Origin: Fusobacteriota bacterium
Lineage (GTDB): Bacteria > Fusobacteriota > Fusobacteriia > Fusobacteriales > JAAYPW01
Assembly: GCA_012519615.1 (NCBI GenBank)
Contig: JAAYPW010000032.1
Location: 1-35,627 of the forward strand
Length of the DNA stretch: 35,627 nucleotides
Reading direction: 5' to 3'
Of this stretch, positions 1,297 to 32,677 are shown one piece after another. A program made the translations under genes and the position numbers. The notes below the pieces were generated by a model. The model was not told the DNA's origin, made no database searches, and worked only from the letters and a program-made list of their open reading frames with translations. Positions within the stretch are counted from its first letter, which is position 1; every line of letters begins with the position of its first letter.

Positions 1297-1337
1297 GGAG
1301 GGAGTTATTCAAAATATTTTTGCATAACGTTGTGATG
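1297..1337 (+). promoter_or_regulatory. Split ribosome-binding site of uppS (SD, hairpin, start)
   Basis: GGAGG at 1297-1301 is the only SD-like sequence, 33 nt before ATG 1335. Between them 1304-1328 forms a hairpin: GTTAT pairs with ATAAC and CAAAA with TTTTG, with one T-C mismatch and a 3-nt loop. Removing the hairpin leaves a spacing of 8 nt to the ATG (5 nt to GTG 1332). Confidence 0.65.
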
Positions 1338-2033
1338 AATGGGAATATATCTCTAAACCACATTGGTATTATAATGGATGGAAATGGTAGATGGGCTTTA
1401 AAACAGGGAAAAAATAGAGTATATGGACATACTGAAGGTGTGAAAAATCTTAAAAATATTTTAGAAATTTCTATTGAGCTTGGAATTAAATATTTAACTG
1501 TATACGCTTTTTCAACAGAAAATTGGAAAAGACCGAAATCAGAAGTGGATGCTTTAATGTTTTTATTTAAAGAATATCTTCTTAATGAGGTGAATAATTT
1601 AAATAAAAATGGGATAAAAATTGTTTTTTCTGGAAGAAAAAATGGTTTAAATGATTCTTTAATTAAACTTATGGATGATATTGAGGAAAAATTGAAATAT
1701 AATGATAAAATTACATTAAATATTGCATTTAATTATGGTGGAAGAGCTGAAATTGTTGATGCTGTTAATAAAATAATTAAAGAAACAGATAAGAAAATAA
1801 TAGATGAAGAGGATATCCAAAACCATCTATATCAATCTAATATACCAGATCCAGAATTAATTATAAGAACAAGTGGAGAATTTAGGATAAGTAATTTTTT
1901 ATTATGGCAAATTGCATATAGTGAATTTTATATTACAGATAAGTATTGGCCTGAATTTAATAAAGAGGAATTTATGAAGGCAATTAGTAGTTACAATAAA
2001 AGAGAAAGAAAATTTGGAGGTTTAAAAATATGA
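1335..2033 (+). CDS. uppS: Isoprenyl transferase (undecaprenyl diphosphate synthase)
   Basis: This 232-residue cis-prenyltransferase condenses isopentenyl diphosphate onto farnesyl diphosphate to make the C55 lipid carrier for peptidoglycan and LPS sugars. The signature MDGNGRW with its catalytic Asp lies near residue 15, followed by the YAFSTENWKRP motif; RTSGEFRISNFLLWQ is the C-terminal diphosphate-binding motif. The family usually begins a few residues before NHIGIIMDGNGRW, which fits ATG 1335 (or GTG 1332). A TTG at 1320 is in frame but lies inside a predicted hairpin. It is the first gene of the run uppS-cdsA-dxr-tmk, and its last codons carry the SD of cdsA, with a 4-nt overlap. Confidence 0.95.
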   Translation: MNGNISLNHIGIIMDGNGRWALKQGKNRVYGHTEGVKNLKNILEISIELGIKYLTVYAFSTENWKRPKSEVDALMFLFKEYLLNEVNNLNKNGIKIVFSGRKNGLNDSLIKLMDDIEEKLKYNDKITLNIAFNYGGRAEIVDAVNKIIKETDKKIIDEEDIQNHLYQSNIPDPELIIRTSGEFRISNFLLWQIAYSEFYITDKYWPEFNKEEFMKAISSYNKRERKFGGLKI

Positions 2034-2851
2034 TTAGTAGAATATTAGTTGCACTATTAACAATACCCGGGCTTATATTAGTTATGTTAAAAGGGGATAT
2101 CTCTTTGTGGTTTGTTATGACAGGTATAATTGTAATATCTACATTTGAATTTTATAAAATGCTAGACAAAAAAGGGATAAAAACATATAAAGTCTATGGA
2201 ATATTAGCGTCTTTTTTCATACCAACTTTTTGCTATTTTAAATATGAATTTTTCTCATTTATAAAAAATGAGCCTTATTTTATATTGACTTTTTTTGTTA
2301 TGCTTACTATTATAACACATATATTTTCAGGAAAAATTGAAGAAACTAGTATGAAATTATCGTATACATTTTTAGGAATACTATATGTCCCTTTTTTATT
2401 TTCACATGTTTTACTGTTAAAACATGTTGATTATGGAAATCATTGGATTTTAACTGCATTTTTACTTGTGTGGGCAAGTGATTCTGCTGCATATTTTATT
2501 GGAATTAAATTTGGAAAACATAAAATGTCTCCGAAAATTAGTCCTAAAAAATCTATTGAAGGTGGTATTGCTGGTATTGTAGCACCTATATTAGCTTTAT
2601 TTCTTATTAAATATGTTCTATATTTTAAAGAAGTAAATATACCTTTTATTCACTTAATATTATTAGGAATGGTTATAGGTATTATAGGTCAATTAGGTGA
2701 CTTAGGAGAATCTTTGTTAAAAAGAGAGTATAATATAAAAGATTCTGGTAATCTATTATTTGGTCACGGGGGATTTTTAGATAGGTTTGACAGCCTTATA
2801 TTTATAACACCAACACTTTATTATTATGTTAAATTTTTCATAACAAAATAA
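2030..2851 (+). CDS. cdsA: Phosphatidate cytidylyltransferase
   Basis: This 273-residue integral membrane enzyme makes CDP-diacylglycerol from phosphatidate and CTP, the branch point of phospholipid synthesis. Hydrophobic segments fill most of the protein. The CDP-alcohol signature is at the C-terminal end (GDLGESLLKREYNIKDSG, then HGGFLDRFDSL), with acidic residues that bind Mg. An upstream SPKKSIEGGIAG stretch is also typical of the family. The ATG overlaps the uppS stop by 4 nt, with GGAGG 8 nt upstream, so the two are translationally coupled. The uppS-cdsA-dxr order is common in bacteria. Confidence 0.95.
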   Translation: MISRILVALLTIPGLILVMLKGDISLWFVMTGIIVISTFEFYKMLDKKGIKTYKVYGILASFFIPTFCYFKYEFFSFIKNEPYFILTFFVMLTIITHIFSGKIEETSMKLSYTFLGILYVPFLFSHVLLLKHVDYGNHWILTAFLLVWASDSAAYFIGIKFGKHKMSPKISPKKSIEGGIAGIVAPILALFLIKYVLYFKEVNIPFIHLILLGMVIGIIGQLGDLGESLLKREYNIKDSGNLLFGHGGFLDRFDSLIFITPTLYYYVKFFITK

Positions 2852-2867
2852 TATAATGGAGGATATT

Positions 2868-4025
2868 ATGAAAAAACTAGTTATTTTAGGTTCAACAGGT
2901 AGTATTGGTAAAAATACACTGGATGTTATAGAAAATAATTCTATGTTTTCAATTGTAGCAATGTCTGCAAATACTAATTATAAACTATTTTGTACACAAG
3001 TAAATAAATATAAACCAAAATATATTGCAATTGGAACAAAAAAAGGTTATGATTATCTAAATTTAAATATAAATTATAGTGTGAAAATATTTCATGGTGA
3101 AAATGCAATAAAAGAGATGTGTAATGAAGCAGAATATGATATACTAGTCAATGCTGTTACAGGGACCAGCACATTAGAAACCACAGTAATTGCATTAAAA
3201 AGCGGAAAAAGAGTTGCTATTGCGAATAAAGAGATATTAGTAACATCAGGTAAAATTATAAATGATCTTGTTAAAAAATATAAAAGTGAACTTATCCCAA
3301 TAGATAGCGAACATAGTGCAATTTTTCAAGCACTTCAATGTGGGGAAAAAGATGAAGTTAATAGAATAATATTAACTGCATCAGGTGGAGCATTTCGTAA
3401 TTATTCATATGACGAATTAAAAAATGTAACACTGGAAGATGCATTAAAGCACCCAAATTGGAATATGGGGAAAAAAATCACAATAGACTCAGCAACACTG
3501 ATTAATAAAGGACTTGAGATTATAGAAGCAAGATATTTATTTGATTATGATTACGATAAAATTGACGTTATAATGCATCCGGAGAGCATAATACACTCTA
3601 TGGTTGAGTATAAAGATAATTCTATTATTGCACAATTAGGAACTCCGGATATGAGAATTCCTATACAATACGCTCTTACTCATCCTTATAGAATTTCTAA
3701 TAATTCAGTAAAAAGTTTAAATTTATTAGAGTATAATTTATTAACATTTAAAAAGATAAATAAAGATATTTTTAAAGGGATCGACTTTGCATATTATGCT
3801 GGAAAAACTGGGAAAACAATGCCATTATGCTTAAATACAGCAAATGATCTAGCTGTAAATTATTTTGTTAAACAAAAAATAAAATTTTTAGATATATATA
3901 AAATAATAGAATACGCAATGGAAACACATAATTTAGTTGAAACTTCATGTGTGAAAGATATTGTAGAAGTGGAAAAATATGAAAAAAATAGAATTAATAG
4001 TTATATTGAATTAAACTATAAATAG
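2868..4025 (+). CDS. dxr: 1-deoxy-D-xylulose 5-phosphate reductoisomerase
   Basis: This 385-residue enzyme makes 2-C-methyl-D-erythritol 4-phosphate with NADPH, the committed step of the MEP isoprenoid pathway feeding UppS. The N-terminal LGSTGSIGKNTLDVI is the NADPH-binding loop. ANKEILV, IDSEHSA and the HPNWNMGKKITIDSATL block carry the metal and substrate ligands. I place the start at ATG 2868 because GGAGG at 2857-2861 lies 6 nt upstream; an in-frame ATG at 2856 overlaps that SD. It is 16 nt after cdsA and in the same operon. Confidence 0.95.
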   Translation: MKKLVILGSTGSIGKNTLDVIENNSMFSIVAMSANTNYKLFCTQVNKYKPKYIAIGTKKGYDYLNLNINYSVKIFHGENAIKEMCNEAEYDILVNAVTGTSTLETTVIALKSGKRVAIANKEILVTSGKIINDLVKKYKSELIPIDSEHSAIFQALQCGEKDEVNRIILTASGGAFRNYSYDELKNVTLEDALKHPNWNMGKKITIDSATLINKGLEIIEARYLFDYDYDKIDVIMHPESIIHSMVEYKDNSIIAQLGTPDMRIPIQYALTHPYRISNNSVKSLNLLEYNLLTFKKINKDIFKGIDFAYYAGKTGKTMPLCLNTANDLAVNYFVKQKIKFLDIYKIIEYAMETHNLVETSCVKDIVEVEKYEKNRINSYIELNYK

Positions 4026-4071
4026 AAAGGTGGTGTAGAACATTATAGTAATATAATTGTTCTTTAAAATG
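4025..4071 (+). promoter_or_regulatory. Split ribosome-binding site of tmk (SD, hairpin, start)
   Basis: GAAAGGTGGTG at 4025-4035 is an extended SD, 35 nt from ATG 4069. Bases 4038-4062 form a hairpin: GAACA pairs with TGTTC, then TTAT with ATAA, with one bulged T and a 6-nt loop. Folding it out leaves a spacing of 10 nt. No other SD lies near the ATG. Confidence 0.7.
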
Positions 4072-4743
4072 GGAAAACTTATTGTAATAGAATCTGGTGT
4101 CGATGGGAGTGGAAAGCAAACTCAAACTGAAAAAATTTATAATAGATTAATAAAAGAAAATTACAAAATAAAAAAAGTTCAATTTCCAAACTATGAAAGT
4201 GATGCATCATCTCTTATAAAAATGTATCTTAATGGGGATTTTGGGAAGAATGCTAATTCAGTTAATCCATATACAGCGTCAACTTTTTATGCAGTTGATC
4301 GATATGCATCGTATAAAAAAGATTGGGAAAACTTCTATAATGAGGGTGGAATAATATTATCGGATAGATATACAACATCGAATATGATTCATCAAGGATC
4401 TAAAATATCTCATATTGCAGAAAAAATAGAGTATTTAGACTGGTTAAATGATTTAGAGTTTAATAAAATAAAATTACCTAAACCAGATTTGGTATTTTTT
4501 CTAGATTTACCATTGGAATATAGTTTAGAATTAACGAAAAACAGAAAAAATAAGATAAATGGAGATATAGAAAAAGATATTCACGAAAAAGATATTGAAT
4601 ATTTAAAAGATACATATGAAAATGGATGTTTTTTAGCAGAAAAATATAAATGGGAAAAGATTAGTTGTATTTTAAATGGAAAATTACGTGAAATAGATGA
4701 TATACATAATGAAATTTATTTAAAATTAAAAAAATATTTATGA
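4069..4743 (+). CDS. tmk: Thymidylate kinase (dTMP kinase)
   Basis: This 224-residue nucleotide kinase phosphorylates dTMP to dTDP. The P-loop GVDGSGKQTQT is at residues 11-21, the substrate-binding YAVDRYASYK lies in the middle, and SDRYTTSNMIHQG is the DRY motif region. PDLVFFLDLPLEYSLEL precedes the lid. The P-loop with Gln after Lys and the overall sequence are of the type seen in clostridia and fusobacteria. Family members begin just before GKLIVIE, which supports ATG 4069 over the TTG at 4057; that TTG lies in the predicted hairpin. It follows dxr in the same operon. Confidence 0.93.
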   Translation: MGKLIVIESGVDGSGKQTQTEKIYNRLIKENYKIKKVQFPNYESDASSLIKMYLNGDFGKNANSVNPYTASTFYAVDRYASYKKDWENFYNEGGIILSDRYTTSNMIHQGSKISHIAEKIEYLDWLNDLEFNKIKLPKPDLVFFLDLPLEYSLELTKNRKNKINGDIEKDIHEKDIEYLKDTYENGCFLAEKYKWEKISCILNGKLREIDDIHNEIYLKLKKYL

Positions 4744-4778
4744 AAATAATAACTATAAAATTTTAAGGAGGAAAAGAG

Positions 4779-5486
4779 ATGAATTTTGATAATTTTGAAA
4801 CACAAGGTGCTTATAGAAATTCAAATTATACTAATTCAAATGTATCGCAATTTGTTAATGCTGTCTACGGCTGGATGTTTTTAGCACTTTTATTAACTGC
4901 GGGAATATCTTATGCTACAGCAACAAATGAAGCTTTATTAGCTTTCGCAATTAATAACATGTTATTTATAGGGATTTTACAAATAGCATTAGTACTTATA
5001 ATAGGTTTTGCATTTAATAAATTAAGTAGTATGAACGCTACTATACTATTTTTTGTATATGCAGGTCTAAATGGATTACTCTTAAGTCCGATATTTATAG
5101 CATATACAAGTGGATCAATATTTACAACGTTTATAGTATGTGCAGCTATGTTTGGAGTGACATCTTTAATAGGTCTTGTAACTAAAAAAAATCTTGATGG
5201 TGTAGGAAGATTTGCAATTATGGCACTAGTTGGAATTATTATTGCAAGTATAATAAATTTCTTTGTGAAAAGTAGTAGTATGGATATGATATTAACATAT
5301 GCAGGTGTATTAGTATTTGTGGCTTTAACTGCTTATGATAATCAAAAGATTAAAAGAATAGGTGCAACTGTAGATCCTAGTTCACCATTTGCAAATAAAT
5401 ATGCAATATATGGGGCTTTAGCGCTTTATTTAGATTTTATAAACCTATTTCTGCACCTATTAAGAATAATGGGACGTAGAAAATAA
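4779..5486 (+). CDS. Bax inhibitor-1 / YccA family membrane protein
   Basis: A 235-residue protein with a short polar N-terminus and about seven hydrophobic segments, ending in a basic LLRIMGRRK tail. The order of segments and the late motif (TAYDNQKIKRIG, then YAIYGALALYLDFINLFLHLLR) identify the BI-1 / YbhL-YccA family of membrane proteins, proposed as Ca2+ leak channels or protease modulators. Its role in bacteria is not settled. A plain SD (GGAGG, 7 nt before the ATG) precedes it, 35 nt after tmk. No terminator is visible after it; enolase has its own promoter downstream. Confidence 0.88.
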   Translation: MNFDNFETQGAYRNSNYTNSNVSQFVNAVYGWMFLALLLTAGISYATATNEALLAFAINNMLFIGILQIALVLIIGFAFNKLSSMNATILFFVYAGLNGLLLSPIFIAYTSGSIFTTFIVCAAMFGVTSLIGLVTKKNLDGVGRFAIMALVGIIIASIINFFVKSSSMDMILTYAGVLVFVALTAYDNQKIKRIGATVDPSSPFANKYAIYGALALYLDFINLFLHLLRIMGRRK

Positions 5487-5518
5487 TAGATGAACTAGTT
5501 TGCTTGTTAAAAAATTAC

Positions 5519-5547
5519 TTTACAATAAAAACAAAATATGTTAAAAT
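5519..5547 (+). promoter_or_regulatory. Sigma-70-type promoter of eno
   Basis: TTTACA at 5519-5524 and TAAAAT at 5542-5547 are separated by exactly 17 nt. The predicted transcript starts about 30 nt before the eno ATG. Confidence 0.6.
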
Positions 5548-5555
5548 ATGTTTAA

Positions 5556-6875
<1,320 letters not shown>

Positions 6876-6883
6876 TAATAAGA

Positions 6884-6918
6884 AAAGACAGCTAATTAAG
6901 TGGTTAGCTGTCTTTTTT
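6884..6918 (+). terminator. Rho-independent terminator after eno
   Basis: AGACAGCTAA (6886-6895) pairs perfectly with TTAGCTGTCT (6904-6913), followed by a T run. It separates eno from the convergent purE. Confidence 0.9.
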
Positions 6919-6938
6919 AAAAAAAGTAGAACTATTTA

Positions 6939-7454
6939 TTACATATTTTCAAGATATAATTTATATCCCAATTCTTGTAATTTCATGTTTTTTTCTAAAA
7001 CATTTTTTTTCATATTATCTCTATAATTCTGTATTTTTTCACGATAATTTGGATATTTAATACCAAGTATCTTTAATGCGAGTACAGCAGCATTTTTTGC
7101 ACCAGTACTACCTATTGCAACTGTAGCAACAGGGATTCCCACTGGCATTTGTACTATAGAGTATAATGAATCAACTCCACCTAAGTCAGAAGTAGTCATA
7201 GGTACTCCAATTACAGGTAAATTTGTATGAGAAGCAAGCACCCCAGGTAGGTGAGCTGCTTTTCCAGCTGCAGCAATTACAATATCAACGCCTTTATCTT
7301 CGGCATTTTTTACATAATTTAAAGCTTCTTCCGTACAACGATGTGCAGATAAAACAGCAATTTCAAAAGGTATATCAAATTCTTCTAGTAGTTTAGCACA
7401 TTCAGACATAATTTTTAAATCTGAATCGCTTCCCATTACTATAGAAACACGCAA
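6939..7454 (-). CDS. purE: N5-carboxyaminoimidazole ribonucleotide mutase
   Basis: This class I PurE of 171 residues interconverts N5-CAIR and CAIR in purine synthesis. The N-terminal VSIVMGSDSDLKIM is the phosphate-binding signature; SAHRCTEEALNYV and AAAGKAAHLPGV follow, with GVPMTTSDLGGVDSLYSIVQMP later. I take TTG at 7454 as start because AAGGAG (7469-7464 on this strand) is 9 nt upstream; an in-frame TTG at 7463 touches the SD. It is alone rather than in a pur operon, and is divergent from comM across about 120 bp. Confidence 0.94.
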   Translation of the reverse strand: MRVSIVMGSDSDLKIMSECAKLLEEFDIPFEIAVLSAHRCTEEALNYVKNAEDKGVDIVIAAAGKAAHLPGVLASHTNLPVIGVPMTTSDLGGVDSLYSIVQMPVGIPVATVAIGSTGAKNAAVLALKILGIKYPNYREKIQNYRDNMKKNVLEKNMKLQELGYKLYLENM

Positions 7455-7495
7455 ATTAATCAACTCCTTAATTTTAATTTAAAATCTATAAATAG

Positions 7496-7524
7496 ATAAT
7501 AACATATATAAATAAAAAAATCAA
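7496..7524 (-). promoter_or_regulatory. Likely purE promoter
   Basis: On the minus strand TTGATT (7524-7519) and TATTAT (7501-7496) are separated by 17 nt. The region is AT-rich, so such matches arise easily. No PurR site or purine riboswitch is evident. Confidence 0.45.
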
Positions 7525-7535
7525 AATTTTTTACA

Positions 7536-7581
7536 AAAAGGTGGTGAAAATTAATAAAATATAGTTATTTTATTAGTGATG
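7536..7581 (+). promoter_or_regulatory. Split ribosome-binding site of comM (SD, hairpin, start)
   Basis: AAAAGGTGGTGAAAA at 7536-7550 is an extended SD. TAATAAAATA (7552-7561) and TATTTTATTA (7566-7575) are perfect inverted repeats with a 4-nt loop, ending on the base before GTG 7576 and ATG 7579. Removing the 24-nt hairpin brings GGTGG to 10 nt from the ATG. Confidence 0.75.
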
Positions 7582-9090
7582 AAAATGTTATCAAGAATAA
7601 TAAGTAGTAGTTATATAGGTGTAGATGCTTATATTGTAAATGTAGAAGTAGATATATCAAATGGTTTACCTAATTTTTCAATTGTTGGATTAGGAGATAC
7701 TGCAATATCAGAAAGTAAAGAAAGAGTGAGAGCTGCTATTAAAAATAGTGATTTCTTTATGGTGCCGAAAAAAATAGTTGTAAATTTGTCACCTGCGGAC
7801 ATAAAAAAAGAGGGTGCTTCATTTGATTTACCAATTGCAATTGGAATTTTAAATTCTATGGGGATGATAGAAGATAAGAAAATTGATTCATATCTAATTA
7901 TTGGTGAATTATCGTTAACAGGTGAAGTAAATAAGGTAAAAGGGGTTATAAATAGTGTAATTGCAGCAAAAGAAAATAATATTAAAGGTGTAATTATTCC
8001 ATATGAAAATTATAAAGAAGCAGATATGATTAAAGGATTAGATATTATTCCTGTTAAAAATTTAAGAGAAACAGTAGATTTTTTAAATGATGAAATAGTA
8101 CCAAAATATGAAGGTCCATTTGATGAGGAGATAGAATTTAAATTCGATATTGATTTCGATGAGGTAAAAGGTCAAGAAAAGGCAAAACGTGCAATGGAAA
8201 TTGCAGCTGCAGGTGGACATAATATTTTATTAAATGGTAGTCCTGGTGCTGGAAAAAGTATGCTTGCAAAAAGAATTTGTACTATTTTACCAGAGATGAC
8301 AGAAGAAGAGATCATAGAAACAACTAAAATATACAGTATTGCGGGATTACTTTTGAAAAATAATCCTATTATAAAAGCAAGACCTTTTAGATCACCACAT
8401 CATACACTTTCAGATATAGCTCTAATTGGAGGTGGAAGATACCCAAAACCAGGGGAAATAACTCTTGCACATAATGGGGTATTATTTTTAGATGAGCTAT
8501 CTGAATTTTCAAAAAAAGTTTTGGAAGTGTTAAGACAACCTTTAGAAGATAAAGTTGTAACTATATCTAGAGCAAACGCAAGTAATGATTTTCCAGCTAA
8601 TTTTATGCTTGTTGGTGCAAGTAATCCTTGCCCATGTGGATATTTATATGAGGAACATGGTACAAAAACATGTACATGTTCATTAGCACAAATTGAAAAA
8701 TATAGTAAGAAACTATCAGGACCAATACTAGATAGAATTGATATAAATATTGATATTAAAAGGGTATCAGAAGATGATATGTTAAATAACCTCCCTTCTG
8801 AAAAATCTGAATCAATAAAAAAACGTGTAATAAGTGCTAGAAAAATTCAATATAGCCGTTACAAAGGGTTAAAGTTAAATGCAAATATAAGTGGTAGAGA
8901 AATAAAAAAATATTGTAATATAGATGAAGATTCTAAAAATATATTAAAATTAGCAGCACAAAAATATAGTTTTTCAGGACGTGCTTTTGATAAAATTTTA
9001 AAAATCTCAAGAACAATAGCTGATTTAGAAGGCGTTGAAAATATTAGAAGAGAACATATTTTAGAAGCATTATCTTATAGAAAAGGGTAA
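7579..9090 (+). CDS. comM: YifB/ComM family AAA+ ATPase (Mg chelatase-like)
   Basis: A roughly 503-residue protein with three parts: an N-terminal ChlI-like domain (VEVDISNGLPNFSIVGL, RVRAAIKNS), an AAA+ core with Walker A GSPGAGKS at residues 220-227 and Walker B LFLDELSEF, and a C-terminal helical domain (AFDKILKISRTIADLEG). A cysteine cluster NPCPCGYLYEEHGTKTCTC lies in the core and is typical of the family. In Vibrio and Haemophilus ComM is a hexameric helicase promoting branch migration during natural transformation. Start codon: GTG 7576, ATG 7579 and ATG 7585 are all in frame; family members usually start at the MLSRI residues (ATG 7585), whereas folded SD spacing favours 7579. Confidence 0.93.
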   Translation: MKMLSRIISSSYIGVDAYIVNVEVDISNGLPNFSIVGLGDTAISESKERVRAAIKNSDFFMVPKKIVVNLSPADIKKEGASFDLPIAIGILNSMGMIEDKKIDSYLIIGELSLTGEVNKVKGVINSVIAAKENNIKGVIIPYENYKEADMIKGLDIIPVKNLRETVDFLNDEIVPKYEGPFDEEIEFKFDIDFDEVKGQEKAKRAMEIAAAGGHNILLNGSPGAGKSMLAKRICTILPEMTEEEIIETTKIYSIAGLLLKNNPIIKARPFRSPHHTLSDIALIGGGRYPKPGEITLAHNGVLFLDELSEFSKKVLEVLRQPLEDKVVTISRANASNDFPANFMLVGASNPCPCGYLYEEHGTKTCTCSLAQIEKYSKKLSGPILDRIDINIDIKRVSEDDMLNNLPSEKSESIKKRVISARKIQYSRYKGLKLNANISGREIKKYCNIDEDSKNILKLAAQKYSFSGRAFDKILKISRTIADLEGVENIRREHILEALSYRKG

Positions 9091-9094
9091 ATAA

Positions 9095-9123
9095 AAAAGG
9101 AGTTATTAAACTCCTTTTGTTTT
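9095..9123. terminator. Bidirectional terminator between comM and metX
   Basis: AAAAGGAG (9095-9102) pairs with CTCCTTTT (9111-9118). T runs lie on both sides when each strand is read 5' to 3', which suits the convergent genes. Confidence 0.85.
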
Positions 9124-9125
9124 AT

Positions 9126-10304
9126 CTATTTTTCCATATTATTAATGAAATTTTGTATAATTGGATTTATTTTTTCATATTCTATAAGAAAAGAGTCGTG
9201 TCCGTGATAAGAGCTAATTTCAAAATATTCTATATTTTTTCCAAGTCCTTTCAAAATATCTGCCATCTCTTTAGAATAATATGGTGGAAACAACCAGTCA
9301 GAATTAAATGATATAATCATTATATTTTTAGCTGCTAAACGACTTAAGGCATCTTTTAAAGAACCATATTCTCTAGAGATATCAAATAAATCCATAGATT
9401 TACTAAGATATAAATATGAATTAGCATCAAATCTTTTTATAAATTTATATCCTTGATGATCAAGATAGTTTTCAACTTCAAATTTCTCATCGAAATCATA
9501 CATTTCACTATTATTTTGGTGTTTTCTACCAAATTTAATCTGCATAGCTTCATCAGATAAATATGTAATATGAGCAACCATTCTTGCAAGGGCAAGCCCT
9601 TCTAAAACTTCGTTAGAATAGTAATTTCCCTTATTCCATTTAGGGTCAATCATTATAGCGTGTCTACCTATTTTATTAAAAGCTATTGCTTGTGGAGATA
9701 ATTTACTTGTAGCTGCAATTGCAATTAGTCCGTCTGCAAATTCAGGATAATCAACACCCCATTGTAAAACTTGCATCCCACCAATGGAACCACCTATAAT
9801 AGCTTTTACATGATTAATTTCAAAATGAAGTTCTAAGAGAGTTTTTTGTGCATTAACCATATCTTTCATAGTAATAGTAGGAAAATCCATTGCATAAGGT
9901 TTATTTGTTTTAGGATTAATAGAACTAGGTCCTGTAGATCCACTACATCCACCTAAAATATTTGAACAAATTATAAAATATTTATCTGTATCCAAAGGAC
10001 GATTTTTACCAATAATAGGATCCCACCAACCGGTATCTCCATTTTCAGATTTACCTGCAACATGCGCATTACCTGTAAGAGCATGGCAAATTAAAATTAC
10101 ATTACTTTTGTCTTCATTTAATGTACCATAAGTTTCATATACTAATTTAATAGGACCCAAAAATTTGCCACATTCTAATTTCATAAAGGGATCTTCTGTT
10201 GTACCTTTTGCAAAAGTAAATTCACCTTTTTGTAAATTGATATCTAAGGGATTATTTGGTGGATATAATTCTTCTCTTTCATTTTTACCTGATTTTTGTT
10301 CCAT
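9126..10304 (-). CDS. metX: Homoserine O-acetyltransferase
   Basis: An alpha/beta-hydrolase-fold acyltransferase of 392 residues that activates L-homoserine for methionine synthesis. Key features are the LICHALTGNAHVAG block (oxyanion region), GGCSGSTGPSSINP, the nucleophile elbow GGSIGGMQ with Ser near residue 173, and a C-terminal YHGHDSFLIE with the catalytic His, preceded by an Asp in SFNSDWLFPP. MetX and MetA differ in fold, so the assignment to MetX is firm; acetyl versus succinyl specificity is not proven. An in-frame ATG at 10349 abuts the SD and would add 15 atypical residues; ATG 10304 is preferred. Confidence 0.94.
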   Translation of the reverse strand: MEQKSGKNEREELYPPNNPLDINLQKGEFTFAKGTTEDPFMKLECGKFLGPIKLVYETYGTLNEDKSNVILICHALTGNAHVAGKSENGDTGWWDPIIGKNRPLDTDKYFIICSNILGGCSGSTGPSSINPKTNKPYAMDFPTITMKDMVNAQKTLLELHFEINHVKAIIGGSIGGMQVLQWGVDYPEFADGLIAIAATSKLSPQAIAFNKIGRHAIMIDPKWNKGNYYSNEVLEGLALARMVAHITYLSDEAMQIKFGRKHQNNSEMYDFDEKFEVENYLDHQGYKFIKRFDANSYLYLSKSMDLFDISREYGSLKDALSRLAAKNIMIISFNSDWLFPPYYSKEMADILKGLGKNIEYFEISSYHGHDSFLIEYEKINPIIQNFINNMEK

Positions 10305-10357
10305 AATAATTATAGTTACAATAAACTTAGATAAAAGTTTGTGTAACATCCTCCTTT
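10302..10357 (-). promoter_or_regulatory. Split ribosome-binding site of metX (SD, hairpin, start)
   Basis: On the minus strand AAAGGAGG (10357-10350) is 45 nt from ATG 10304. GTTACA (10347-10342) pairs with TGTAAC (10320-10315), and inside it AAAC with GTTT. Removing this 33-nt hairpin leaves 12 nt. No SD lies next to the ATG. Confidence 0.6.
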
Positions 10358-10398
10358 CCTATAATAAATATATTTAATTATTATTTTTTTATAACTAT

Positions 10399-10427
10399 AT
10401 TATACATTAAAAGTAAAAATTCTTCAA
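10399..10427 (-). promoter_or_regulatory. metX promoter
   Basis: On the minus strand TTGAAG (10427-10422) and TATAAT (10404-10399) have a 17-nt spacer. The predicted 5' leader is under 100 nt, too short for a SAM riboswitch. Confidence 0.7.
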
Positions 10428-10705
10428 TACTTTTTTAAATTTCATCTTATTTATAATGTAGCGTTAGAACATAAAGATGAAATCATTATAATCTTATTTA
10501 TGGAGTTTGGCGATAGTTTTTTAATTTTTATTTTTAAAAAATTAAAATCTTATTACTTTTTTCTATAGAAAATAAATAATATGTTGTGAATTTTTTAATG
10601 GAGAGATTTTATAAATATTATATTTTCAAAAGCATACATTATTATTTTAGAATGAATAAGGTAAAATAAATCTAAATTTATAATCTTGACATTCAACTAT
10701 AAATC
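10428..10705. other. Intergenic region between metX and chrA genes
   Basis: No gene is visible. One inverted repeat is clear: TTTCATCTT (10440-10448) with AAGATGAAA (10474-10482), a 9-bp perfect stem around a 25-nt loop. It has no T tract, so it is not an obvious terminator. Confidence 0.5.
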
Positions 10706-10734: not shown

Positions 10735-10803
10735 TTTATTATAAATAATAAAAAAAAGATAATAGTTGCAAATTAATTTATAAAAATAGAGGAGAATAGC
10801 AAA

Positions 10804-20663: not shown

Positions 20664-20786
20664 AGAGAATTGTAAAAATAAAAATATAGTTCTACTGAGG
20701 CAAGTGAGTTATTGCTTGCCAAATTTGATTTTTAAATATAAACTTTAAAATACGTCTGTTACAACGTAAAGAATAATAAATAGAGA
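20664..20786 (+). promoter_or_regulatory. Structured 5' leader of ilvE, upstream part
   Basis: The leader holds a hairpin, GGCAAG (20699-20704) with CTTGCC (20715-20720), and GTTACAACGTAA at 20758-20769, which can pair with the element right after the SD. No T-box consensus and no terminator T run were found. A GTG at 20704 after GAGG opens a short frame with several Leu and one Ile codon, but its case as a leader peptide is weak. Confidence 0.45.
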
Positions 20787-20878
20787 GGAGGAAGTTACGT
20801 CAAAAAATTGTAACGTTATAAAGTAATAATATTATTATTAATTTTATTTTGTAAATTTTGCGTAACAAGTTAGCAATG
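20787..20878 (+). promoter_or_regulatory. Split ribosome-binding site of ilvE with long hairpin
   Basis: GGAGG (20787-20791) is 84 nt from ATG 20876. GTTACG (20794-20799) pairs with CGTAAC (20861-20866), extended by CAAAA with TTTTG (one bulge), and an 8-bp palindrome at 20824-20840 forms an inner hairpin. Folding out 20794-20866 leaves 11 nt. GTTAC can alternatively pair with GTAAC at 20810-20814, and TTACGT with ACGTAA at 20764-20769. Confidence 0.65.
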
Positions 20879-22765: not shown

Positions 22766-22778
22766 GGAGAGATTTGAT

Positions 22779-24002: not shown

Positions 24003-24006
24003 TCGT

Positions 24007-24079
24007 GAAAGGTGGTGAATTTCGTTATCAAATTTGAAATAGATTGTAAAAAATCATTTTGATAGCGGAGCAATCTGTG
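24007..24079 (+). promoter_or_regulatory. Split ribosome-binding site of the PpiD-like gene
   Basis: GAAAGGTGGTGA (24007-24018) is an extended SD 61 nt from GTG 24077. Bases 24020-24032 pair with 24058-24070 (core TATCAAA with TTTGATA; 13 pairs including three G-U). Folding this out leaves exactly 10 nt. A GGAG at 24067-24070 could serve as a close SD, but it lies inside the stem. Confidence 0.6.
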
Positions 24080-25993: not shown

Positions 25994-26001
25994 AATTATA
26001 T

Positions 26002-26033
26002 AAGGGATAAATTTAATTTATCCCTTTTTTTAA
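26002..26033 (+). terminator. Rho-independent terminator after the PpiD-like gene
   Basis: AAGGGATAAA and TTTATCCCTT pair perfectly around a 5-nt loop, followed by a T run. Confidence 0.92.
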
Positions 26034-26798
26034 TATAAATTTTAAGATAGCTTTGTATAGAAAATACAATTTAAAATATGTGATTTTATTTCAAATGTAA
26101 AATATTAAAATCTTCATTACCCATAATAATAATTTTTTAGACTAAAAAACAATATAAAAATATAAAATAATAGAAAGCACGAGATGCTATACATATATTA
26201 TTATATTTATATTTATATTTTAATATATTACCGTCCTAAAATAAATATAGTTTTAGAGTCAAAATGTGTTATAAATATTAATATAGTTATGTACAAAAAT
26301 TTTAATTTTAAATGTACAATTTTATTTAAATTAAATAATTAAAATATTATTATTTTTTATGCATTAAAGATTTGTTTGCATAGCAAAAAAAACTAAGCGA
26401 TTAATATTTCTCTGCTAATATTTTTCTTTCATAAAATTTCTAATAACTTTTTATACTATATTTCTAAAAATTTCAAACTCACTATGTTCAAACATAAGTA
26501 GAATTTTTATGAAATCGAAAATCTTACATAATACGGACTTTTAAATCTTCAGAAAATATTTTTAACAGAAGATTTTATTAAAAAGAATGCAATTTTTTCC
26601 GATGTATGAATTTTATTGGAAACTAAGATTTGTTTTTATAGAAAGTTTAATAATAATTAAAACTATATGACATAATCATTATAATTTTATTTTACTAGTA
26701 TTTAAAAAGTATTGTAGTAAGATTTAAGTTGATATTCTTATTTTATAATTGAAACATAAATTTTGAATAAATAATAAAAAATTATTTTAAAAAAAGTA
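26034..26798. other. Gene-free region before the tRNA operon
   Basis: No coding sequence is recognised on either strand. TGTACA occurs twice in a short palindromic stretch near 26290-26320. The one clear structure is the inverted-repeat element at 26427-26514, listed separately. Confidence 0.5.
26427..26514. repeat. 88-bp inverted-repeat element (MITE-like)
   Basis: TTTCATAAAATTTCTA at 26427-26442 and TAGAATTTTTATGAAA at 26499-26514 are inverted repeats matching at 15 of 16 positions. The middle has a smaller palindrome (ATGTT with AACAT near 26484-26494). No open frame is inside. The size and ends resemble a miniature non-autonomous element or an interspersed palindromic repeat. Confidence 0.5.
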
Positions 26799-26827
26799 TT
26801 GACATTTTTTAAAAAATAATGTATAAT
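26799..26827 (+). promoter_or_regulatory. Consensus promoter of the tRNA operon
   Basis: A perfect TTGACA (26799-26804), 17-nt spacer and perfect TATAAT (26822-26827), about 28 nt before the first tRNA. Confidence 0.92.
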
Positions 26828-26855
26828 CTTTAATGTCCTTGAGAGAGGAAGTTAA

Positions 26856-26943
26856 GCCTCGGTGGCGGAATAGGTAGACGCACAGGACTTAAAATCCTGT
26901 GGTGAATTTCACCGTGCCGGTTCGATTCCGGCTCGAGGCACCA
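26856..26943 (+). tRNA. tRNA-Leu (anticodon TAA)
   Basis: Acceptor strands GCCTCGG and TCGAGGC pair (one G-U). The anticodon arm ACAGGA-CTTAAAA-TCCTGT carries TAA; a long variable arm (GGTGAATTTCACC) marks a class II tRNA, and the T arm is GCCGGTTCGATTCCGGC. CCA is encoded. Confidence 0.95.
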
Positions 26944-26974
26944 TTTTCAAAGTCGGTGCTTTTTATAAAATTGT

Positions 26975-27051
<77 letters not shown>

Positions 27052-27055
27052 AAAC

Positions 27056-27132
27056 GCCGATGTAGCTCAGTTGGCTAGAGCATGCGGTTCATACCCGCAG
27101 GGTCGTAGGTTCAAATCCTATCGTCGGCACCA
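27056..27132 (+). tRNA. Elongator tRNA-Met (anticodon CAT)
   Basis: Acceptor GCCGATG pairs with TGTCGGC-type strand ending in ACCA; anticodon arm TGCGG-TTCATAC-CCGCA. The CGGTTCATACCCG arm is that of elongator Met, not lysidine-type Ile(CAT). It lies 4 nt after tRNA-fMet. Confidence 0.9.
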
Positions 27133-27194
27133 ATATAATAATTACGTAAAAACCTTATACCCCCTTTTTAAGGAATTACGAATATATAAATTTT

Positions 27195-27227
27195 AAAGTC
27201 TAAATATTTTATTTGGACTTTTTTTTA
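27195..27227 (+). terminator. Terminator of the tRNA operon
   Basis: AAAGTCTAAAT pairs with ATTTGGACTTT (one G-U), followed by a T run. A weaker CCTT/AAGG hairpin lies just upstream. Confidence 0.85.
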
Positions 27228-27244
27228 TTTATGTTTAATTTTTC

Positions 27245-27273
27245 TGTACAAAGAATATAAAATATAGTATAAT
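27245..27273 (+). promoter_or_regulatory. Likely promoter of the LPS cluster
   Basis: TGTACA (27245-27250), 17-nt spacer, TATAAT (27268-27273). A perfect 12-nt tandem repeat AATTTATATAAT (27271-27294) overlaps the -10 and start region. Confidence 0.65.
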
Positions 27274-27313
27274 TTATATAATAATTTATATAATAAATAT
27301 AGAGGTGGATAAC

Positions 27314-28075
27314 ATGAAATTATCTGTGGCAATATTAATATTTAATTACGAAAAACATATTGAGCGTACTCTTAAGTCGATTAAAGATTGGGCAGATGAA
27401 ATAGTTATGATTGATAGCTATAGTAGTGATAATACAGCCGATATTGCATCAAAATACGGTACTGTATATAAAGAGGAGTGGAAAGGTGATGGTCCACAGT
27501 ATAAAAGCGTTGTTGCTAAATGTAAAGGGGAATGGATTCTTTTAATTGATCAAGATGAAGTAGTAACTGATAAACTAAAAAAAGAAATCAGTGATATAGT
27601 TAATAATGGTAGTAAATACGATGTTTTTAAATTACGTTTTCTTAATAATAGTTTTGGTAAAACACTTAAATTTGGAAATAAATTTTATAGAAAATCTTTT
27701 TTTAGAAATGGATTTATGGATTTTGAAGATCGTCCACTTCATGCAGCTTTTTTAAGTAAAGGAAAATTAGGAAATTTAAAAAATTGTGTAATTAATTATA
27801 ACTATGAAAATCTTGAAGAATATTTTAAAAAGTTTCAAATTTATACAACAGAGGGTGCGGAAACTAGATTTAAAAAAGGCAAAAGGGGAAGTATAATTAA
27901 AATATTAATGAATCCAATATTTAGATTTATAAAAAGATATATATTTCAATTAGGGTTTTTAGATGGATTTTATGGATTTTTAGATGCAGTACTTTCATCT
28001 TTTTATACTTTTACAATTTATTCAAAGTTAAGATTATTAAATATTGAAAATGAAAAAATAAAAAAGAACGAGTGA
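27314..28075 (+). CDS. WaaE/KdtX-like family 2 glycosyltransferase
   Basis: A 253-residue GT-A glycosyltransferase. LSVAILIFNYEKHIERTLKSI starts the nucleotide-binding fold, IVMIDSYSSDNTADIA is the first acidic site, and ILLIDQDEVVT contains the metal-binding DxD-type motif. Length and the EWKGDGPQYKS stretch resemble WaaE/KdtX, which adds a hexose to the first heptose of the LPS inner core. Start ATG 27314 follows AGAGGTGG by 5 nt; a GTG at 27305 is in frame inside that SD. The kinase gene starts 4 nt after the stop, so the two are coupled. Confidence 0.85.
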   Translation: MKLSVAILIFNYEKHIERTLKSIKDWADEIVMIDSYSSDNTADIASKYGTVYKEEWKGDGPQYKSVVAKCKGEWILLIDQDEVVTDKLKKEISDIVNNGSKYDVFKLRFLNNSFGKTLKFGNKFYRKSFFRNGFMDFEDRPLHAAFLSKGKLGNLKNCVINYNYENLEEYFKKFQIYTTEGAETRFKKGKRGSIIKILMNPIFRFIKRYIFQLGFLDGFYGFLDAVLSSFYTFTIYSKLRLLNIENEKIKKNE

Positions 28076-28079
28076 TATT

Positions 28080-28778
28080 ATGAAAAACTTTAAAATTAAA
28101 TATTTTGATACTGATAAAAAAACATGGTCAATTGATGATATTAGAGAAATCATGACGACAAAGGGGAAAATTTTAAAAAATAATAGAAGAAGTTTTGTAA
28201 AAAAAGTAGAAATAAAAAACAAAACTATAATTTATAAAATCCCTACAGAAAAAAATATCTCAAATTGGATTAGACTGTTAACATTATTTAGAAAAAGCGA
28301 AGCACAAGTTGTATTAGAATCAATGGTCATATTAAATGAAAAAAATATATATACGAATAAACCAATAGCATATGGTGAAAAACGAAAATTTGGGATGGTA
28401 GTAGATTCGTTTATGATTTACGAATATCTAAATGGAACAACTGTAACTGAAGAAAATTCCAAAGAAGTAATTCTTTTATTAAAACAAATACATGCACTGG
28501 GCTACCTACATAATGATTCGCAAATTGAAAATTTTTTAAAAAATGGTGATAATATATATGTTATCGATGCAAAACTAAAGAGAAAGAAATTTGGTAAAAT
28601 ATCTGAAAATTCTGAATATATTAAATTTGCCTCTAATGCAGAAAAAGCATATGATTATATAGATACAAAATCTATCTATTTTAAAATTGCTATGTTTTTT
28701 TATAAATTATTTAAATTCAAAAGAAAAATTAGAAAACAGATGAAAAATAGAAAAATAAAAAAAGATAATAAAAAGTAA
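28080..28778 (+). CDS. RfaY-like LPS core kinase
   Basis: A 232-residue small protein kinase-fold enzyme. Visible parts: a Lys-containing N-lobe (RSFVKKVEIKNKTIIYK), a hinge IYEYLNGTTV, the catalytic loop LHNDSQIENFL with Asp as base and Asn downstream, and a metal-binding IDAKLKRKKFG. This matches the RfaY/WaaY family, which phosphorylates heptose in the LPS core. The acceptor sugar is inferred from the neighbouring WaaE-like gene. The tail is very basic. A decayed copy lies at 29235-29912. The SD is weak, suggesting coupling to the upstream gene. Confidence 0.8.
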   Translation: MKNFKIKYFDTDKKTWSIDDIREIMTTKGKILKNNRRSFVKKVEIKNKTIIYKIPTEKNISNWIRLLTLFRKSEAQVVLESMVILNEKNIYTNKPIAYGEKRKFGMVVDSFMIYEYLNGTTVTEENSKEVILLLKQIHALGYLHNDSQIENFLKNGDNIYVIDAKLKRKKFGKISENSEYIKFASNAEKAYDYIDTKSIYFKIAMFFYKLFKFKRKIRKQMKNRKIKKDNKK

Positions 28779-28908
28779 AGAAATATCTTATTAAAGAAAA
28801 GTTTAAAATTATAGTTAATGAATAAATATATTAAATATTATGAAATAAAGATAAAATTATAAATATATCTGCAATAAATAAACTAAAGATAGAATAAAGA
28901 TAATTTAT

Positions 28909-29169
28909 TTGAGGATAGTTAACTCTAAAGTAAGTTATAAATATATATTTAACTATTATAATAGTAGTGCATATATGGTAGGGAAAATGAAAGGAACAGG
29001 AGAGTATTATAGCTCCATAAATATAATAAAAAACCATGATAGAAAAAATCTATTAAAATTATATTTTTTTAATCTAAATTTAGGTATAAATATTAAATCC
29101 ATGGGTAAATTTTATAAAAGATTATTTTCAGATTTAAATTTTTTTACATTTAAGACCTTCAATTTTTAA
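28909..29169 (+). CDS. Unrecognised small reading frame between the two kinase copies
   Basis: A possible 86-residue product starting at TTG, rich in Lys, Asn and aromatic residues. No SD of note precedes it and I recognise no family. It ends in a Phe-rich stretch. Since it sits beside a decaying duplicate it may be the tail of a lost glycosyltransferase gene rather than a functional gene. The rest of 28779-29234 shows nothing else. Confidence 0.25.
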   Translation: MRIVNSKVSYKYIFNYYNSSAYMVGKMKGTGEYYSSINIIKNHDRKNLLKLYFFNLNLGINIKSMGKFYKRLFSDLNFFTFKTFNF

Positions 29170-29234
29170 TAACTTTATAATATATTTAAAATTAAAATCA
29201 ATAATCATAAATAATAAAAATAGGTGAGATTATA

Positions 29235-29912
29235 ATGAAAGATTTTAAAATAAAATTTTTTAATAGTGAAAATATAAATTGGTCTATTGAAGATATTAAA
29301 GAAGTTATAACTAGAGATGGAGAAGTTTTAAAAAATGATGAAAGAAGTTTTGTAAAAAAAATGGAAATAAAAAATAAAAAAATAATCTACAAAGTTCCTA
29401 ATCAAAAAAACAATTCAAAAAGAACTAGATTTTTATCACTTTTTAGAAAAAGCCAAGTAGAAGTTGTGTTAGAATCAATGGAGATATTAAATAAAAATAG
29501 AATATATACTAATCAACCAATAGTCTTTGGAGAAAAACGAAAATTTGGGATGGTCATTGATTCGTTTATGATTTATGAATATATAAAAGGAATCGAAATA
29601 ACCTAAGAAAATACTAAAGAAATATTGGATAGTTTAAAAAAATCCATAATATTGGTTATTTACATTTCGATCCATATAAGTGGAACTTTTTAAAAATGGA
29701 AAACGAGATATATGTTATTGATGCAAAATTAAAAAAAGGTAATTGGAAAAATTTATGAAAATACTGAATATATTAGATTTGCAAGAGATGTAGAAAAAGC
29801 ATATGAGTATATAGATAAAGAATCTATCTGCTATAAAATTGTATCGATTTTTTATAAATTTAATAAATGGAAAAGAACAATGAAAGCCGAGAGAAAAAAA
29901 GAAAATAAATAA
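29235..29912 (+). pseudogene. Broken duplicate of the RfaY-like kinase
   Basis: The translation parallels the intact kinase at 28080 from the first residues (MKDFKIKFFNSENINWSIEDI against MKNFKIKYFDTDKKTWSIDDI). It is interrupted by a TAA at 29604, at the position of the VTEENSKE stretch. It then continues in two more frames (IHNIGYLHFDPYKWNFLK with YVIDAKLKK, then GKIYENTEYIRFARDVEKAY) to a stop at 29910. At least one nonsense change and two frameshifts are needed. The catalytic loop HND has become HFD. The SD (AGGTGAG) and ATG survive. It is a tandem duplication now decaying; sequencing errors could explain single frameshifts but not all three. Confidence 0.85.
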
Positions 29913-29923
29913 AAATAAAGAAT

Positions 29924-29967
29924 AAAAAGGTGGTGAAAAATAAGATTTTAATCTTATAAAAAAAATG
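29924..29967 (+). promoter_or_regulatory. Split ribosome-binding site of the DegT-type aminotransferase
   Basis: AAAAAGGTGGTG (29924-29935) is an extended SD. ATAAGATT (29940-29947) and AATCTTAT (29950-29957) form a perfect inverted repeat. GGTGG is 31 nt from ATG 29965, or 13 nt with the hairpin folded out. Confidence 0.7.
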
Positions 29968-31059
29968 AAAATACCTTTTGGAACATTAAAAAGACAATAC
30001 GATATGCACAAGGATGAATATGAAAATGCCGTATTAGAATCTATGAGAAGTGGTTGGTATATATTAGGGGAAAAAGTATCTGCATTTGAAGAGGCATTTG
30101 CTTCTTATACAGGAACGAACTATTCTATAGGGGTAGGAAATGGACTAGATGCATTAATAATTTCTATACGTGCATTAGATATAGGTATAGGTGATGAGGT
30201 TATTGTACCTGCAAATACATTTATAGCAAGTGTAATGGGAGTTACAATAAATGGAGCAACTCCTATTTTTGTAGATTGTGATAAATATAGTTTAATAGAT
30301 GTAGATAAAATAGAGGAGAAAATCACAGCTAAAACAAAAGCTATATTACCTGTACATCTTTATGGGCAATCTTGTAATATGGAAAAAATAATGGAAATTG
30401 CTAAAAAAAATAATTTATATGTAATAGAAGATTGTGCACAGTCACATGGAGCAACATTTAAAGATGAAAAAACAGGAACTTTTGGGGATATATCTTGCTT
30501 TAGTTTTTATCCAGGTAAAAACTTAGGTTGTTTTGGAGATGGAGGAGCTATTAATACTTCCGACGAAAAATTGTATAATAGAATAAAAATGTTAAGAAAT
30601 TATGGAAGCGAAAAAAAGTATCATAACAAAGAAGTAGGATATAATTCTAGATTAGATGAGATACAAGCTGCCATTCTATTAGTAAAATTAAGATATTTAG
30701 AGGAATTAACAATTGAAAGAGAAAATATTGCAAAAAAATATTTAGAAAATATTAATAATGAAAATATAAAATTACCAGAAATCAGTAAAAATTGTAGACA
30801 TGTTTGGCATCTTTTTGTAATTGAAGTGGAAAATCGTGATAAATTTCAAAATTATATGCAATCTAAAAATATTGACACAATGATCCATTATCCAATACCA
30901 CCATATTTATCAGAAGCATATAGTTACTTAAATATAAAAAGAGGAATTTATACAAATACAGAAAAATTATCAGAAAGAATAGTAAGTTTACCAATTTATA
31001 ATGGTATGACTAATGAGGAAATTTTCTATGTTATAGAATCTATAAATAATTATAAATAG
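29965..31059 (+). CDS. DegT/DnrJ/EryC1 sugar aminotransferase (FdtB/QdtB-like)
   Basis: A 364-residue PLP enzyme that transaminates a dTDP-3-keto-6-deoxy-hexose. [27 protein letters not shown] is the standard start of the family, supporting ATG 29965. [33 protein letters not shown] and the PLP Lys (about residue 185) in SFYPGKNLG are clear. Directly followed by an FdtA-type isomerase, it fits synthesis of dTDP-Fuc3N or dTDP-Qui3N. The product cannot be chosen from sequence, and the usual acetyltransferase is not next to it. Confidence 0.9.
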
Positions 31060-31078
31060 TATTTATAAGGAGTAAAAA

Positions 31079-31504
31079 ATGGATAGAGGGCAAATAAGAA
31101 TTGTATATATAAATCAAATCGAAGATAGAACTGCAAATCTATGTTTTATGGAATATGAATCTATGATCCCGTTTTTAGTCAAAAGGGTATATTATGTACA
31201 TGACATAAAAACCGATGCAAAACGAGGATTTCATGCACATAAAGAGCTTCATCAGTTTATGTTTTGCCCTTATGGGGAGATAGAATTAGAACTAGATACA
31301 GGTCATGAAAAAGTAATTGTAAATTTAGATAAACCAAATAAGGGATTAATACTAAAACCAGGCGTATGGAGAGAATTTAAAAGTAAAAAAGAGGGATCTG
31401 TTTTATGTGTCTTAGCTTCTGAAAAATACGAGATTGACGACTATGTAAGAGAGTATAGTGAATTTAAAGATATGGTAAAAAATGGATTTTGGGACAATAT
31501 ATAA
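31079..31504 (+). CDS. WxcM-like cupin isomerase (FdtA/QdtA-like)
   Basis: A 141-residue cupin of the dTDP-4-oxo-6-deoxyglucose-3,4-oxoisomerase type. VKRVYYVHDIKTDAKRGFHAHKELHQF carries the conserved His pair of the active site, and the C-terminal SEKYEIDDYVREYSEF is characteristic. It moves the keto group from C4 to C3, giving the substrate of the aminotransferase upstream. It sits 19 nt after that gene with a normal SD (AAGGAG). Galacto (FdtA) versus gluco (QdtA) outcome is undetermined. Confidence 0.88.
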   Translation: MDRGQIRIVYINQIEDRTANLCFMEYESMIPFLVKRVYYVHDIKTDAKRGFHAHKELHQFMFCPYGEIELELDTGHEKVIVNLDKPNKGLILKPGVWREFKSKKEGSVLCVLASEKYEIDDYVREYSEFKDMVKNGFWDNI

Positions 31505-31519
31505 AATGGAGTTAATAAT

Positions 31520-32605
31520 ATGAAAAAAATAATTTTTTTTAATAGCTGTAAAGTCTGGGGTGGAGGCGAAAAATGGCATTTAGAAATGGCAACTGAAATA
31601 GCCAAAAAAGACTATGATGTTGTAATTTTTGGTTACAAAAATTCTGAACTTATACAGAAAGCAAAACAAAATGGTTTGAAAACAAAAGAGATTAAAATAT
31701 CAAATCTTAGTTTTTTAAATATTTTCAAAATGTTTAGATTAAAAAGAGAGTTAAGAAATGAAAATGCCGATATATTAATTATGAATTTACCGTCAGATGT
31801 AAAAACAGCTGGAGTTATGTGTAGAATTAATAAAAAAACTAAAATAATATACAGACGAGGAAGTGCAATTCCGATAAAAAATAGTATATTAAATAGATTT
31901 ATATTCAATAATGTTATTGATTATATAATTGCCAATTCAGAAGAAACTAAAAAAACAGTATTAAAAAATCAAATTTTTAAAGAAGATAAAATTATTACTA
32001 TATATAATGGGATAAATATAGATAAATATAATAATAGAAATTATGAATTGCTGTATAAACGGGAAAATAATGAACTTATTATAGGAAATGCAGGAAGATT
32101 ATCATATCAAAAAAATCAATTTTTTTTGCTTGATTTGGCTGATGAATTAAAGAAAAATTTTATTAATTTTAAAATATTAATTGCAGGAGACGGAGAATTA
32201 AAAGAAAAATTATTAAATGAGATAAAAAAAAGAAATTTAGACAATAATATTATATTTTTAGGATTTGTAGAAAATATTAAAAGCTTTATGAAGTCAATTG
32301 ATATTTTTATATTACCATCTCATTGGGAAGGGTTTGGATATGTTATGGTAGAAGCAATGTTATCTAAAAAACTTGTAATTGCCTTTAATAAAAGTTCAAA
32401 TTCAGAAATTGTAGAAAATAACAAAACCGGATATCTCGTAAATTACAATAATATTTATGAAACTTATGATAAAATAATAGATTTTATAAAGATAGATGAA
32501 AATATAAAAGAAAATATGGGAAATTATGCAAAATTATATTGCGAAGAGAAATTTTCGCTAGAAAAATCAGTAGAAAAATTTGAAAAATTTATTAATAGCA
32601 TTTAA
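31520..32605 (+). CDS. GT4 family glycosyltransferase
   Basis: A 361-residue GT-B retaining glycosyltransferase. The N-terminal domain opens with SCKVWGGGEKWHLEMATEIAK, a glycine-rich acceptor-side loop. The C-terminal domain shows GNAGRLSYQKNQFFLLDLA, a phosphate-binding region, and the EX7E motif stretch HWEGFGYVMVEAMLSKKLVI. The donor may be an activated hexose or the amino-deoxy sugar made by the two genes upstream. A close SD (GGAG) precedes the ATG. Confidence 0.87.
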   Translation: MKKIIFFNSCKVWGGGEKWHLEMATEIAKKDYDVVIFGYKNSELIQKAKQNGLKTKEIKISNLSFLNIFKMFRLKRELRNENADILIMNLPSDVKTAGVMCRINKKTKIIYRRGSAIPIKNSILNRFIFNNVIDYIIANSEETKKTVLKNQIFKEDKIITIYNGINIDKYNNRNYELLYKRENNELIIGNAGRLSYQKNQFFLLDLADELKKNFINFKILIAGDGELKEKLLNEIKKRNLDNNIIFLGFVENIKSFMKSIDIFILPSHWEGFGYVMVEAMLSKKLVIAFNKSSNSEIVENNKTGYLVNYNNIYETYDKIIDFIKIDENIKENMGNYAKLYCEEKFSLEKSVEKFEKFINSI

Positions 32606-32620
32606 ATTGATATAATAATA

Positions 32621-32677
32621 AAAAGGGGGGGTGAAAATTTATTAGTAATATAATATTATTAATAAATTCCTTTAATG
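32621..32677 (+). promoter_or_regulatory. Split ribosome-binding site of the family 9 glycosyltransferase
   Basis: AAAAGGGGGGGTGA (32621-32634) is the SD. Bases 32636-32649 pair with 32655-32668: 14 consecutive pairs with one G-U and a 5-nt loop, the strongest hairpin of the set. ATG 32675 is 43 nt from the SD core linearly, 10 nt with the hairpin folded out. Confidence 0.78.

Follow-up and report, generated by a model that had tools for sequence, protein, structure and literature searches.

Hairpin-split ribosome-binding sites as a probable genome-wide mode of translation initiation in a member of the Fusobacteriales

Introduction

Gene finders and models of translation initiation treat the spacing between the Shine-Dalgarno (SD) sequence and the start codon as a fixed, short window. 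The closest described systems in which this spacing is bridged by structure are the split translation initiation regions of bacteriophage T4 (Nivinskas 1999; Malys and Nivinskas 2009; reviewed in PMC3014915). As summarized in that review, an intervening structure shortens the SD-AUG distance of T4 genes 25 and 38 from 27 to 11 nt and from 22 to 5 nt, respectively, and mutations that destabilize it reduce initiation (PMC3014915). Gene 25 had been named as an isolated precedent in the original prediction, which was made on the DNA analyzed here; this is borne out, with gene 38 as a second case.

The leaders described here have the anatomy of the T4 genes 25/38 type: a strong but distant SD without a closer one, a stable stem in between, and a near-functional spacing once the stem is folded out. 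They were found in a window of 35,627 nt, which is one whole contig of a 1.80 Mb genome in 158 contigs, and the same anatomy recurs in the remainder of the genome that we sampled. Judging by its relatives, among which are records of Fusobacterium and Leptotrichiaceae, the genome belongs to the order Fusobacteriales.

Results

Eight leaders in the window

The original prediction listed eight leaders composed of an SD, an inverted repeat and a start codon, and all eight are present at the predicted positions (Table 1), with folded-out distances close to those claimed. Our automated stem search recovered seven of them; uppS falls just below the SD-energy threshold, and its gap and effective distance were measured by hand. 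The single partial exception allowed to the rule that only a far SD is available is metX, which has an in-frame ATG (10347-10349) directly after its GGAGG SD. The assignment of the start codons from conserved family N-termini likewise holds, as profile matches support the window starts: residue 2 of the GT9 protein corresponds to profile position 1, residue 1 of the PpiD-like protein to position 1 of SurA_N_3, and residue 3 of IlvE to position 5 of PRK06606.

Table 1. Split leaders of the 35,627-nt window. Gaps were measured from the last G of the SD core; comM has two possible ATGs.
Gene	Positions	Strand	SD	Hairpin	Start codon	SD-start gap (nt)	Folded-out distance (nt)
uppS	1297..1337	+	GGAGG 1297-1301	1304-1328 (GTTATtCAAAA..TTTTGcATAAC)	ATG 1335	33	8
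tmk	4024..4071	+	AGAAAGGTGG 4024-4033	4037-4063	ATG 4069	35	8
comM/yifB	7535..7587	+	AAAAAGGTGG 7535-7544	12-bp, 7550-7577	ATG 7579 or 7585	34/40	6/12
metX	10302..10359	-	GGAAAGGAGG 10350-10359	10315-10347	ATG 10302-10304	45	12
ilvE	20784..20878	+	AGAGGAGG 20784-20791	long compound, 20794-20866	ATG 20876	84	11
PpiD/SurA-like gene	24006..24079	+	GAAAGGTGG ~24007-24015	24020-24070	GTG 24077	61	10
fdtB-like aminotransferase	29924..29967	+	AAAAAGGTGG 29924-29933	7-bp, 29940-29957	ATG 29965	31	13
glycosyltransferase family 9 (GT9) gene	32622..32677	+	AAAGGGGGGG 32622-32631	15-bp, 32636-32668	ATG 32675	43	10

Some of the coding regions of the window are of interest in themselves. The tmk product (4069-4740) is a divergent dTMP kinase that scores under the curated cut-offs of TIGR00041 and PRK07933. 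Positions 28080-28778 and 29235-29760 hold a tandem pair of similar kinase-like genes (lipopolysaccharide-kinase-like by eye), of which the second copy is broken by an in-frame TAA near 29604, giving it the appearance of a decaying duplicate.

Hairpins in the gaps exceed shuffled controls across the genome

The genome was sampled as the window plus 77 further stretches, 870 kb in total, of which 19.5 kb is N and 850 kb is readable (47% of the genome); the G+C content of the sampled part is 25.5%. Five small contigs (L007, L016, L049, L052 and L076) read as N (G+C 0) and perhaps carry rRNA. Gene calling was mechanical, with 638 ORFs of at least 110 codons as the denominator, and an SD was considered strong at a stacking energy of -13 or lower against the expected anti-SD, which was assumed because the 3' end of the 16S rRNA lies outside the readable assembly.

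In the 850 kb, 234 strong SDs lie 4-14 nt from a start codon, and a further 60 have no start at that distance and precede a frame that becomes open only downstream of the SD. Counting as gap-filling those hairpins whose stem starts at most 10 nt from the SD and ends 3-17 nt before the in-frame start, we found one in 49 of the 60 far SDs, against 9.5 ± 2.7 in dinucleotide-shuffled gaps; loosening the SD threshold to -10 gives 62 of 117 against 15.6 ± 2.7. The excess over shuffled leaders anticipated by the original prediction is therefore found. Inspection by eye added nine leaders in which the reading frame extends across the SD, bringing the set to 58. As an independent measure, we scored the best stem at any place within the gap, which reaches p ≤ 0.05 in 37 of these 58 and p ≤ 0.01 in 20; the same statistic gives p ≤ 0.05 for 19 of 234 42-nt segments upstream of ordinary SDs and for 4 of 44 gaps in 1.3 Mb from diverse phyla. 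A looser statistic based on minimum free energy (44 of 120 at p ≤ 0.05, with 6 expected) mixed in SD-like sites within genes and was replaced. In the sampled 47% of the genome, the 58 split leaders correspond to about 9% of ORFs of at least 110 codons, or about one gene in eleven, and by extrapolation to approximately 120 genome-wide.

Properties of the split leaders

The gap between SD and start codon in the 58 leaders is 47 ± 18 nt, ranging from 28 to 105 nt, and the spacing that remains unpaired is 12.8 ± 4.0 nt (median 12; 4.7 nt leading into and 8.1 nt trailing the stem), compared to 7.9 ± 2.0 nt in ordinary genes. Their SDs are stronger, with a median energy of -17.4 versus -14.3 (p=1e-11), and the claimed extension into GGTG is confirmed, following the SD core in 33 of 49 split and 70 of 234 ordinary genes (Fisher p=2e-6). 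Longer effective spacing together with stronger SDs would fit a cost of bridging the base of the stem. The SD itself is not part of the stem, and its accessibility matches that of ordinary genes (probability of being unpaired 0.55 in split leaders and 0.56 in ordinary ones), and the closing stems are predicted to be still folded at 65 C in 86% of cases. As had been proposed, structure rather than sequence is kept, since the only similarity among the stems of this genome is in short A/T-rich or SD-flanking stretches. The split genes include murI, ftsA, murG, purM, rsmI, ylqF/rbgA, miaB, lon, pyrH, pheS, pheT, bipA and accC, whose varied functions point to no single pathway. An Rfam search matched only three tRNAs in the window and nothing in ten loci of family f3, one of the families (labeled f1 to f4) among the relatives within the order Fusobacteriales.

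Relatives mostly have ordinary leaders

Samples of families f2 (400 kb) and f4 (200 kb) gave hairpin counts near those of shuffled gaps (7 versus 8.9, 6 versus 4.0 and 2 versus 1.6), so there is no clear excess in the samples of these two other families of the order, nor in those of diverse phyla. The check in relatives thus found the arrangement to be absent from most of those sampled. The same holds for individual genes: comM orthologs have ordinary leaders in 29 relatives, as do the accC and uppS orthologs in all those examined, so the hairpin is dispensable for the gene concerned.

A second family, f3, has the same geometry

In many f3 species, bipA is preceded by AAGGAGG-TTAACAA..TTGTTAA-ATG, and in four f3 species pheT has a 19-bp hairpin; both genes are thus split in some species of this family as well as in the window's genome. 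The unbiased sampling of f3 is small: 100 kb of one genome (G002) yields no hairpin excess (2 versus 1.6), and another (G036) yields a modest one (7 versus 2.7 ± 1.1).

The gene behind accC in f3 provides a comparison across eight species. Its SD lies 53-171 nt before the ATG, all eight leaders fold with a closing stem that adjoins the SD and about 6-13 nt from stem to start, and the interior length of the hairpin varies freely. In three genomes (L293, L296 and L297, from G014, G020 and G018, respectively) the hairpin has grown, placing the SD 151-171 nt before the ATG, well outside the customary distances. Covariation of the stems had been put forward as a test, and its outcome is divided: pairing is conserved in f3, with 82% of cells in the eight-species leader able to pair, a share that drops to 34-53% if the register is shifted, but the formal pair count on the eight-species alignment does not rise above a letter-shuffle control, in part because of alignment shifts. 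Strict covariation in this leader is accordingly only suggested by the alignment.

A recurrent f3 module, GAAAGGAGWGTRTGRTA, is found upstream of unrelated genes and is accompanied by a hairpin and a start codon in all 20 sampled loci. Across 33 f3 genomes there are about 35 copies of a 17-base pattern restricted to the SD and the 5' arm, and none of the reversed-pattern control. The full 8-bp partner arm is present in 19 of the 20 loci, with 0.94 expected after shuffling, and the twentieth (L360) has a 7-bp hairpin with a 4-nt loop; L360 and L344 were read by eye because the script demanded a longer loop. The start codon lies mostly 7-11 nt past the stem, and the pair types vary consistently, with A-U, G-U and G-C at pairs 3 and 6. 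The stem base GTRTGRTA/TAYCATAC is common to many of these modules, although the genes that they precede are unrelated.

In two f3 genomes (L332-L335, L337 and L338 in G002 and G022), cassettes of about 60 nt comprising upstream flank, SD and hairpin recur almost unchanged before unrelated genes, giving the impression that an entire ribosome-binding module was duplicated to other sites in the genome. Copies with a shared sequence, as expected of dispersed palindromes of the REP or MITE type, are present for one f3 cassette and absent in the window's genome.

Discussion

Taken with the shuffled controls, the relatives and the f3 pairing, the sequences support the main claim of the original prediction, and we consider it probable that split ribosome-binding sites constitute a genome-wide initiation mode in the window's genome. 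In the mechanism that we propose, the 30S subunit would pair with a strong, extended SD, and the next 20-75 nt would form a hairpin that remains intact and is kept out of the way. A start codon 4-13 nt past the stem could then enter the P site with an effective spacing of about 12 nt, compared to 8 nt in ordinary genes. The stronger SD and the extra 3-5 nt may pay for bridging the base of the stem. The hairpin would form on the ribosome and be accommodated rather than melted, presumably with initiation at a useful rate at the assigned starts. We looked to the loss of ribosomal protein S1 as a cause and rejected it, since, in common with its relatives, the genome contains a 535-aa frame bearing several S1 domains.

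It could be that the true start lies near the SD, as a non-AUG codon or a short leader peptide, and that the assigned start is either mistaken or used through reinitiation. The in-frame ATG of metX would be compatible with this, as would the GTG or TTG codons inside some gaps and the 28 of 58 split SDs that stand close behind the stop of an upstream gene. However, 49 of the 58 gaps contain an in-frame stop, so that in those leaders the start cannot adjoin the SD, and ATGs 4-13 nt past the SD are rarer than expected (5 leaders, with 9.7 ± 2.7 expected from shuffles); the leader-peptide form was rejected on these two grounds. Moreover, bipA, pheT and accC orthologs align from residue 1 of the assigned start, and a start near the SD would leave the hairpins unexplained. 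We regard this reading as very improbable. Excision of the hairpin from the mRNA, with rejoining of the ends before translation, would fit the independence from length seen in the f3 orthologs, but the leaders carry no splice-site signal, no cleavage-ligation system is known for such a use, and the T4 precedent works without one; such processing is hardly credible.

The hairpins might instead be regulatory, in which case the binding of a protein, metabolite or small RNA, or a thermometer effect, would switch the distant SD on and off, and the arrangement would not be constitutive. The stem base shared among f3 modules could be a recognition element, and bipA and pheT are split in both groups; against this, the stems of the window's genome have no common sequence, the genes are unrelated, and Rfam gives no match. 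The thermosensitive control that the original prediction had entertained is not favored, given that the SD lies outside the stem; because most closing stems are predicted to be stable at 65 C, a thermometer operating in the growth range is unlikely. The factor-sensitive control that it also named may apply, although regulatory switches as a whole appear doubtful. A possibility that deserves more weight, if still short of an even chance, is that the hairpins are neutral, being palindromes that were inserted or grew between SD and start and are tolerated since the ribosome can bridge them. Consistent with this are the near-identical SD-hairpin cassettes, flank included, at several loci of one f3 genome, the alternation of orthologous leaders between ordinary and split, and the freedom with which loop lengths change. 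However, the stems of the window's genome are mutually unrelated, and both the greater SD strength and the constraint on spacing indicate selection, if only of a compensatory kind. This explanation concerns the origin of the hairpins and is compatible with initiation across a folded-out hairpin.

A broader form of the folded-out mechanism is tentative: two Fusobacteriales families may routinely initiate a sizeable share of their housekeeping genes through hairpin-split sites, using a ribosome or factor adapted to keeping a hairpin between SD and start codon and possibly a trans-acting factor that reads the f3 stem base. In either form, tens of housekeeping genes break the SD-spacing rule in sequence and apparently obey it in structure. 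This would turn an isolated phage curiosity into about a hundred natural test cases of the way in which the 30S subunit copes with structured RNA between the SD and the P site. The starts of split leaders could also be misplaced by gene finders built to look for a close SD.

Comparison with known systems

Full-text literature yielded isolated precedents and no case of genome-scale recurrence in cellular housekeeping genes, an absence that is weak evidence because subscription journals and preprints are largely outside the coverage. The split site is known as a kind, and its genome-scale use in cellular housekeeping genes appears to be new. RNA thermometers and riboswitches that sequester the SD also place a hairpin in the initiation region; here, in contrast, the SD is outside the stem and accessible as in ordinary genes. 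In E. coli thrS, a hairpin parts an upstream single-stranded region from the initiation region, whereas here it lies between the SD and the start codon. What thrS, as described in PMC3936740, has in common with our proposal is a long hairpin that the ribosome tolerates in its folded state. T4 genes 25 and 38 resemble the present leaders most closely, in that the SD is too far from the AUG and a stem restores a functional distance. They differ in that T4 offers two phage genes, compared to about 58 leaders in 47% of a cellular genome, and gaps of 22-27 nt, compared to up to 105 nt here (171 nt in f3 orthologs); furthermore, the stem sequences here are unrelated between genes, and the folded-out spacing is slightly longer than both that of T4 (5-11 nt) and that of the genome's own ordinary genes.
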